NCBI RefSeq assembly: GCF_028771845.1
Contig: NZ_CP118270.1
Location: 4,464,001 to 4,528,000 of the forward strand
Direction: 5' to 3'
Source of the DNA: Paenibacillus marchantiae
GTDB lineage: Bacteria > Bacillota > Bacilli > Paenibacillales > Paenibacillaceae
Length of the DNA stretch: 64,000 nucleotides
Position 1 is the first letter of the stretch. The number at the start of each line of letters is the position of its first letter. Below the pieces are notes generated by a model. That model was not told the DNA's origin. It searched no databases and saw nothing but the letters and a program-made list of their open reading frames with translations. Made by a program: the position numbers and the translations under genes. Below are positions 23,193 through 24,640 of the stretch, one piece after another.

Positions 23193-23230
23193 AAAGGTAG
23201 CCGATCAGTACGATCGGCTGCCTTTGTTTA
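23193..23230 (+). terminator. Intrinsic terminator after the flavin reductase
   Basis: AAAGGTAGCCGATC, loop AGTAC, GATCGGCTGCCTTT (one G-U pair), followed by GTTTATTTT. Confidence 0.85.
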
Positions 23231-23359
23231 TTTTCAACTTCAAAAGTTAGCAGAATTCATATCAAAGAGGTGGGTAGTCAAAAGTTATTTTTCTCATGCG
23301 TGGCTTTTTTGCTTCCTCCGGTGTCTAATTATATGTAAATCAAGAGGAGGTTCCCCACC

Positions 23360-24583
23360 ATGTCAGGAGCTCATGACACGAAACCTGTTTATCCGGATGA
23401 ACAGGAAAGCATCACCATCTTTGAGAACACGTATGAGCAATATCGTCAACGAATCAGCAAATACTTCTCACTGAAATTGAATCCGTTGGTTGCAGACGAT
23501 TTGACCCAACAGGTATTTTTGAAAGCAGTCGAAAATATTCACAGCTTTAAAGGAGGCTCTAATTTATTCACCTGGATCTTTAAGATTGCTCAGAACACGG
23601 TGAAGAACGAATATCGCAGGTTATCGCGACAAAAAGAATCTCCTTATGATTTTACAGATTATGAATCGCAATCGATCTCTCTTGAATTTACGAAACATGT
23701 TGATATTCGAATTGATATTGGCTCCGCGTTACAAAAGCTGGATGAGATTGATCAGGAAATTATTGCATTACGCTTTTTCGTTGACTGCACCTTGCCCGAA
23801 ATATCCAAGATAGTTGGACGACGGGAAAGTGCAGTAAAGAACAGACTATACAGGGCTTTGGAGAAATTAAGAAAAGAACTAAAAGAGTGGGGGGATATTG
23901 CCATCATGTCTATTCAAGACCTGATTTCCATTGTAAATAAAGGTGAAAACCATGATACGAATGATCGTACGAAGAAAGTGCATCAAGATTTGTTCGATGA
24001 ACTCAATAATAGTGTTGAACGAGTGTCGACCAAATATAAACATCATCCATCACAAAAGGTAGTTATTGAAATTTATCCTGATCTACCAACATTCCATCAA
24101 GCCGTCGGCGAAACAGATGCCCCCAATTGGTTTATGGGCACATATGAAGGGCGTACTCTGAAGATTGTTTCTCCATTGAATCCGGGACCGGAGCATACGT
24201 ATCAATCCATTCTGAAAGGCACAGTCCACTTGTTCGCCATGTGGCTAATCAGCGACATTAATCCTGCAGCTCCCAAATGGATAAGACAGGGTATTGGTGG
24301 ATATGAAGCTAAACAGATGTCCCAAGATTTCATTAAAGGATCAACGGAAGATAGCATACGCAATCAGTCGATTCCATCTTTTGATGAATTAAATAACGAT
24401 ACGTGGGATTTTGAAACGATGAAAGGTTTTCAGTTCTCTTATATGATGGTGGAATTTGTGGTTGAGCGATACGGGATAGAGGCATTAAACAAACTGATTC
24501 GCAATCCTCTAGATTTCAAAGGGATCTTTCAATGCAGTGAGACTGAACTGTATGAGCAATGGGTGAAGTATATAGAAATATAA
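23360..24583 (+). CDS. ECF-type sigma factor fused to a degenerate gluzincin (peptidase MA-like) domain
   Basis: The first 180 residues are a sigma-70 family factor: VADDLTQQVFLKAVENIHSF and NLFTWIFKIAQNTVKNEYRR form region 2; LDEIDQEIIALRFF and LPEISKIVGRRESAVKNRLY form region 4. Residues about 205-407 resemble the peptidase MA-like (gluzincin) fold: GTYEGRTLKIVSP, then KGTVHLFA where HExxH is expected (Lys286-Gly287-Thr288-Val289-His290), and KWIRQGIGGY where W-x-x-EG is expected (Gln310). Only one His survives, so the domain cannot be a zinc protease. GAGGAGG precedes the ATG. No anti-sigma gene is adjacent. The fused tail may sense an envelope signal or hold the sigma inactive; that is inference. 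Confidence 0.82.
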   Translation: MSGAHDTKPVYPDEQESITIFENTYEQYRQRISKYFSLKLNPLVADDLTQQVFLKAVENIHSFKGGSNLFTWIFKIAQNTVKNEYRRLSRQKESPYDFTDYESQSISLEFTKHVDIRIDIGSALQKLDEIDQEIIALRFFVDCTLPEISKIVGRRESAVKNRLYRALEKLRKELKEWGDIAIMSIQDLISIVNKGENHDTNDRTKKVHQDLFDELNNSVERVSTKYKHHPSQKVVIEIYPDLPTFHQAVGETDAPNWFMGTYEGRTLKIVSPLNPGPEHTYQSILKGTVHLFAMWLISDINPAAPKWIRQGIGGYEAKQMSQDFIKGSTEDSIRNQSIPSFDELNNDTWDFETMKGFQFSYMMVEFVVERYGIEALNKLIRNPLDFKGIFQCSETELYEQWVKYIEI

Positions 24584-24612: not shown

Positions 24613-24640
24613 AGGCTCGGTGATGAACCGGGCTTTTTTG
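24613..24640 (+). terminator. Intrinsic terminator after the ECF sigma gene
   Basis: GGCTCGGT, loop GATGA, ACCGGGCT, then TTTTTT. G-U pairs are present. It lies in the 166-base gap before the next gene. Confidence 0.7.

Follow-up and report, generated by a model that had tools for sequence, protein, structure and literature searches.

According to excerpts of PMC3426412 and PMC8999054, ECF41 sigma factors carry a fused regulatory extension, their promoter is highly conserved and their targets are very few. SnoaL-like extensions, the type found in ECF41, also occur in ECF56, ECF205, ECF294 and ECF295, and in ECF42 (TPR extension) and ECF238 CorE (metal-sensing extension) the C-terminal extension replaces the anti-sigma factor, as excerpts of PMC8999054 describe. 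The same excerpts list ECF264 and ECF115 as groups with extensions, with proteins from Saccharibacillus and Bacillus sp. as examples.

We analyzed a gene encoding a related architecture in a 64,000-nucleotide stretch of the Paenibacillus marchantiae genome (hereafter the window; positions 4464001-4528000 of a 6.98-Mb single-contig genome). Its 407-aa product resembles the ECF41 factors of those excerpts in joining sigma2 and sigma4 regions to an enzyme-like C-terminal fold, in having no anti-sigma gene, and in its conserved promoter-like motif and very few apparent targets. It differs in its extension, which is SnoaL-like in ECF41 and a predicted gluzincin here (no SnoaL match by Pfam in the window protein at E up to 1), and in its motif, GTGGCTTTTT-N10-GGTGTCTAAT as against TGTCACA-n16-CGTC, so that the -35 side reads GTGGCTTTTT and not TGTCACA. 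ECF41 also has a COE partner gene, whereas no partner recurred across 69 fusion loci. ECF42 and ECF238 CorE share the C-terminal extension but use other domain types, and Pfam returned no TPR match in the window protein at E up to 1. The features of the locus are as follows.

23199-23219, scored on the minus strand: terminator-like inverted repeat upstream of the fusion gene
23300-23329, plus strand: putative autoregulatory ECF-type promoter, GTGGCTTTTT-N10-GGTGTCTAAT, conserved upstream of fusion genes
23345-23350, plus strand: ribosome-binding site AGGAGG, read in the sequence
23360-24583, plus strand: fusion gene, 407 aa, intact ORF with ATG start (Pfam and AlphaFold)
23432-23629, plus strand: sigma region 2, residues 25-90 (Pfam PF04542, Sigma70_r2, 8e-10)
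23672-23716, plus strand: sigma2-sigma4 linker with two predicted strands, 105-109 and 114-119 (AlphaFold secondary structure)
23714-23875, plus strand: sigma region 4, residues 119-172 (Pfam PF08281 and PF04545)
23960-24580, plus strand: catalytically dead gluzincin-fold domain, residues 201-407 (sequence homology, AlphaFold, structural matches)
24170-24187, plus strand: SPLNPG motif, residues 271-276, interpreted as lining the edge-strand side of what was the active-site cleft (SPLxPG in 56 of 57 fusion ORFs)
24227-24241, plus strand: degenerate HExxH, HLFAM, residues 290-294 (Leu291 in 85 of 85 fusions)
24278-24292, plus strand: degenerate WxxEG, WIRQG, residues 307-311 (Glu310 retained in 1 of 85 fusions)
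24613-24635, plus strand: terminator-like hairpin and T tail 3' of the fusion gene

A first-pass annotation, made from the sequence alone, had described an ECF sigma factor fused to a peptidase-like domain with no anti-sigma gene alongside, and both parts of this description held. The 407-aa ORF is intact, with sigma regions 2 and 4 lying within about the first 175 residues and the C-terminal domain occupying about 205. Sigma70_r4_2 matched residues 119-170 (E 9.5e-12), TIGR02937 scored over its cut-off (85 vs 42.9 bits), and the only sigma-70 regions detected by Pfam were 2 and 4, a feature of ECF (group 4) factors. The own genome contained no second copy of the C-terminal domain, other matches having E values of 0.18 and worse. 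The gene is flanked by genes for an FMN reductase, an Rrf2 regulator and MurB upstream and for a short-chain dehydrogenase and an APH-type kinase downstream; no anti-sigma gene adjoining it was found in the window, and no neighbor family recurred in more than 6 of the 69 fusion loci (window included; up to 7 kb where the contig allows). Given the hairpin downstream and the inverted repeat upstream, the gene is probably monocistronic. Among the matches listed, which may omit the window's own record, the closest species-labelled locus was that of Paenibacillus taichungensis (98%). A sequencing join or a pseudogene was ruled out by the conservation of the fusion across dozens of species.

We then considered the fold of the C-terminal part, about 200 residues that had been thought to resemble a peptidase MA-like fold, with structure prediction proposed as the check. 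Peptidase_MA_2 (PF13485) matched residues 283-382 weakly (E 0.003, or 0.001 with the C-terminal part alone) and below its curated Pfam cut-off (17.8-19.4 vs 32.4 bits). Across 296 genomes of the order, five free-standing proteins matched this part over about 200 aa at 26-30% identity (E 1.4e-16 to 2.1e-21), a kinship beyond chance. An AlphaFold2 model of the window protein, built on a 51-row alignment (A3), had a mean pLDDT of 77.9; most of the C-terminal domain scored about 90 and takes a gluzincin fold in the model. With Foldseek, ECF sigma structures, matching the N-terminal half, had the best E-values and collagenases came next. In the VIA-align comparison, gluzincins headed the 50 matches listed (Z 15.0 to 11.2), led by collagenase 7wss (Z 15.0; 224 residues, 4.1 A) and lugdulysin 7bb8 (Z 13.8), followed at Z of about 12-13 by M1 aminopeptidases and TFIID chains (7edx_B, Z 12.8; 6mzc_B, Z 11.9). 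We take these two chains to be TAF2, presumably catalytically dead. The collagenases (M9), lugdulysin (M30) and M1 aminopeptidases thus share the predicted gluzincin fold at Z 15 to 11 but are known enzymes, at only about 8-13% identity, and a sequence search of the PDB with the dead domain gave chance matches only. Predicted fold and sequence homology together place the C-terminal domain in the gluzincin / peptidase MA clan, as the first reading had it.

Many of the structural alignments to gluzincins start at residues 96-104. The model and these alignments suggest that the sigma2-sigma4 linker hairpin may complete the gluzincin sheet by strand complementation; a sliding-window profile comparison of the linker with the first hairpin of the free-standing domain was negative, its best scores lying elsewhere and all being weak.

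The active site was examined in 85 distinct fusion proteins drawn from two locus sets (66 and 19), ten of them triple fusions, with partial proteins left out. The counterpart of HExxH had initially been placed at KGTVH (residues 286-290). This register is four residues off, because residues 290, 291 and 294 of the window protein align with the H, E and H of the motif in all nine free-standing relatives of alignment A3 that keep it, so KGTVH was ruled out in favor of HLFAM (290-294). The assignment of WxxEG to WIRQG was correct: Gln310 aligns with the motif Glu in the same nine relatives and occupies the position of the third zinc ligand. None of the 85 fusion proteins has an intact HExxH. Leu replaces the catalytic Glu at 291 in all of them, the second zinc His at 294 is never kept, and Glu310 survives in one, while Gly311 is present in 85 of 85 and His290 in 61. 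An active gluzincin requires both HExxH and the downstream Glu ligand, and the window protein lacks both; the loss of catalysis first proposed therefore extends to the close fusion homologues, and an active peptidase was ruled out by these motifs.

The region around SPLNPG is kept in this dead site. SPLxPG occurs in 56 of the 57 distinct fusion ORFs from the protein search, the exception (L125) missing the last Gly. The 51 rows of A3 also agree but were mostly retrieved with that motif, and its invariance in the genome-contig scan is partly by construction, since that set was retrieved with a pattern built on it.

To place the fusion in a wider context, we surveyed its distribution. In the genus sample, 28 of 75 genomes carried the dead domain, 24 of them at full length (G087 in an N-terminally shortened frame) and the other four as fragments only; in the order sample, 52 of 296 genomes had a domain match, free-standing peptidases included. 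A genome-contig scan seeded with SPL[NH]PG, of which the best 80 of 83 relatives were taken, contained at least 68 species-labelled fusion loci: 66 from Paenibacillus, one from Neobacillus mesonae and one from Bacillus sp. By architecture, 61 of the 68 were two-domain (L190 split, L149 short) and seven three-domain. The count of the fusion in Paenibacillus that had been proposed thus gives a full-length domain in 24 of 75 genomes and at least 66 loci.

The free-standing relatives have a homologous domain and differ from the fusions in having leaders (by eye), intact motifs and no sigma part. The five from Paenibacillales have open frames of 263-287 aa with signal- or lipoprotein-type leaders by eye and keep HExxH and WxxE[GS] (WLDEG in four, WLYES in one), with TP in place of SPLxPG in four of five. 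Another 11, among the best 80 of 83 relatives, came from Bacteroidota (eight), a partial Mcinerneyibacteriota MAG (one) and Clostridium (two), all with HExxH and WxxEG, bringing HExxH to 16 of 16. These HExxH-bearing proteins are apparently secreted. Two Bacteroidota proteins of about 780 aa (L194, L196) join an alpha/beta hydrolase-like part (by eye) to an HExxH-bearing member of the family.

A tree built from 51 domain rows put all 42 fusions on the same side of one branch (support 100/98, with a long-branch warning). This fits a single origin of the fusion, with the active site lost before the diversification of the fusions. Across 12 two-domain pairs, NG86 dN/dS, with some dS values saturated, was 0.060-0.248 for the dead domain and 0.060-0.166 for the sigma half, so that purifying selection on the two is about as strong. 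Constraint was weaker in two triple-fusion pairs (sigma 0.23-0.25, dead domain 0.35-0.39, third domain 0.39-0.46). Across 861 non-independent pairs, sequence identities of the sigma half and the dead domain co-varied (Spearman 0.95). The selection is evidence that the dead domain is important, not of sensing.

We next examined the promoter-like motif. GTGGCTTTTT-N10-GGTGTCTAAT was present with at most two mismatches at 58 of 62 two-domain loci, window included (44 exact, nine with one mismatch, five with two); the others were L189 (4 mismatches), L191 (5), L192 (8) and L149 (9, a short frame). At the same 62 loci, control spacers of 8, 9, 11 and 12 gave 4 mismatches at best. The loci carrying the motif are related and hence not independent, but their neighborhoods differ between subgroups. 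In the triple fusions the motif is diverged at the same spacing, with 4-5 mismatches in six of seven, three of which are hardly better than control spacers; upstream of L202 there was none.

Targets were sought with the exact pattern in the own genome and, in 75 genomes, with one mismatch of the pattern and three of a longer one. In the own genome, the site before the fusion gene was the only GTGGCTTTTT-N10-GGTGTCTAAT match with three or fewer mismatches. The longer pattern gave 41 sites in the 75 genomes, 29 with at most two mismatches (18 exact) and 12 with three. Of the 29, 24 precede the gene, two precede a truncated copy, two are in gene-less genomes and one is elsewhere (G076), while ten of the 12 three-mismatch sites were unrelated to the fusion gene. 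Because a backward-read control was as frequent (about 50 matches at three or fewer mismatches vs 41), the weak sites are background and close matches alone are informative; a spacer one base longer gave 19 matches, the best with two mismatches. No target promoter besides its own was found at the stringency used. Since the motif has no close match in the own genome apart from the one at this gene, and ECF factors generally autoregulate (excerpts of PMC3426412), the fusion gene is probably under positive autoregulation through this motif.

Motif sites in three genomes with no domain match are read as fossils on their sequence context: G082 keeps the first codons of the gene, and G083 and G095 similar upstream sequence only. 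Alternatively, they may be captured promoters in continued use. Promoters resembling that of the sigma gene persist in genomes without the gene at L242, L243 and L244, the last of which keeps the first codons too. By eye, they are followed by a secreted-type protein in L243 and L244 and by an alpha/beta hydrolase-like protein in L242.

One branch carries an additional domain. These triple fusions (753-824 aa; seven species-labelled loci, four species) consist of sigma regions, dead gluzincin and SBP_bac_1, and come from P. solanacearum, P. mesophilus, P. ginsengarvi and P. hemerocallicola (L202-L207 and L209). Triple fusions of about 820 aa are also found at L116-L125, loci without a species label. 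SBP_bac_1 matched at E 7e-22 to 5e-21 in the three copies scanned with Pfam, all from loci without a species label, and the best solved sequences for the third domain were Lmo0181 (5f7v, 1.8e-15) and a sugar ABC transporter binding protein (4rk2). In L203, L204 and L205, a gene for a secreted-type binding-protein relative lies 25-28 bp downstream of the fusion; in L202 the binding-protein gene is upstream on the opposite strand, in L207 there are fragments, and in L206 and L209 none was found within the stretch covered. The third domain and the separate nearby binding protein were 40-45% identical at the four loci compared. No strongly hydrophobic stretch was found in the window protein, and hydrophobicity over 19 residues reached at most 1.34 in it and in four triple fusions, so the sensor parts should be cytosolic. 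Values above 1.6 occurred in ten of 85 fusions, mostly in sigma region 4 or over-long N-terminal frames. A model of an 823-aa triple fusion was poor (pLDDT 51, seven sequences).

Taken together, we consider it fairly probable that these proteins are one-component ECF sigma factors that work free of an anti-sigma factor, with the dead gluzincin as a built-in sensor. The first-pass annotation had suggested a built-in regulator or ligand sensor, and we infer the same; the sensor role is strengthened by the purifying selection, the seemingly self-directed motif and the relatives with an added sugar-binding-protein domain. In such a mechanism, the dead cleft would bind a ligand, either a peptide or another small molecule. 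The domain would in one state pack on sigma2/sigma4 and hide a surface for RNA polymerase or the promoter, and ligand binding would alter this packing and release the sigma part. Once released, the factor could activate the promoter lying 30 to 60 bp upstream of its own gene and so set up a positive feedback loop. In the triple fusions of about 820 aa, the sugar-binding-protein domain, predicted to be cytosolic, may supply or refine the ligand input, in some loci with a related secreted binding protein beside the fusion.

Another explanation is structural. The dead domain might be a constitutive part or a protein-docking platform, for instance one serving RNA polymerase or an activator, and be required for activity or stability without ligand sensing; we regard this as possible though unlikely. 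The purifying selection would suit it, and the TFIID chains among the structural matches offer an analogue in TAF2, which we take to be a dead M1-type gluzincin within the transcription initiation complex. Excerpts of PMC3426412 add that part of the ECF41 extension is required for activity. However, the 20 residues of highest conservation are the block with the cleft-edge motif; motif-based retrieval biases this only in part, given SPLxPG in nearly all of the independently found fusions. The extra sugar-binding-protein domain on one branch also points to ligand input.

Beyond these two readings, mobility has to be weighed. Copies of a 412-aa subgroup (G001, G065, G081, G233, G264) share 98.1-99.6% DNA identity over 1239 bp. 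In seven pairs with G233 or G264, the gene is 98.7-99.6% identical over this length as against 77-80% for the rpoB region, which indicates recent horizontal spread between distant species. The copies are no longer similar beyond 433 bp upstream or 223 bp downstream at most, and their flanking genes are different. A segment of 1.3-1.8 kb with the 412-aa paralogue, 93-99% identical, lies in unrelated genomic places of several Paenibacillus species (L168, L169, L170, L171, L173, L174, L176 and L185), and palindromic repeats of a dispersed kind stand close to its edges. Palindromes of the form AACTAWC.T.CCCGTTAG.T.AAT were seen by eye near both ends of several copies. Six of seven genomes contain dispersed copies of a 24-base palindrome (2 to 19; controls 0) and two of seven have an inner hairpin; a search of the window, made with an initial version of the palindrome, showed neither. 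Five loci were examined for direct repeats. Strong ones on both sides (67 and 24 nt) were confined to the P. lautus copy, and the 26-nt pair of L174 is weak (77%). No mobile element with fixed ends was found; the ends vary from pair to pair. PADLOC returned nothing.

Sensing and mobility might be combined in a mobile family of self-activating sensors, with the dead protease cleft (and a cytosolic SBP domain in one branch) as ligand sensor, an own promoter and terminator, hardly any target beyond itself or its own operon, and a cassette of 1.6-1.8 kb spreading between Paenibacillus lineages through dispersed palindromic repeats. We consider this combination rather doubtful.

A simpler version, in which gene, promoter and terminator form a self-activating cassette that persists mainly through horizontal spread and self-expression, with little or no host regulon, seems improbable to us. 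It would account for the near-identical copies in unrelated neighborhoods, the repeat-like palindromes lying close to the ends of several copies, the four of 75 genomes with remnants only, and the concentration of close motif sites at the gene, its truncated copies and fossils, with one exception among the 29. Yet no transposase was seen inside the spreading segment, the edges vary between pairs, and no match was found on plasmids (72,556 records, E 1e-15) or viral contigs. Moreover, both halves of the protein are under purifying selection, and the window's copy lies in a partly syntenic region common to close relatives.

Control by an unlinked anti-sigma protein, in a canonical ECF system with the dead domain as its docking site or a protease adaptor, is very improbable: anti-sigma control is the commonest ECF mechanism, but extensions typically replace a missing anti-sigma factor (both from excerpts of PMC8999054), and the fusion loci hold no recurring linked candidate.

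If the favored reading of a built-in sensor is correct, the gluzincin would be another enzyme-derived fold beside SnoaL among built-in sigma regulators, and a bacterial dead gluzincin in transcription initiation, comparable to what we presume of TAF2. The triple fusion points to reuse of an extracytoplasmic binding-protein fold within the cell, as a gate on a sigma factor, and the family may offer a ligand-gated, orthogonal sigma switch. The literature searched yielded no description of a sigma factor with a gluzincin or SBP extension; an existing group of the 2021 ECF classification (Casas-Pastor et al.) may already contain these proteins, ECF264 and ECF115 being possible candidates. The conserved promoter-like motif, the triple fusions of about 820 aa and the recently spread 412-aa subgroup are newly found here.

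As a minor observation, L187 has a 264-aa methyltransferase-like gene (by eye) that starts 39 bp downstream of the fusion, and the same family is similarly placed in L188 and one more locus.
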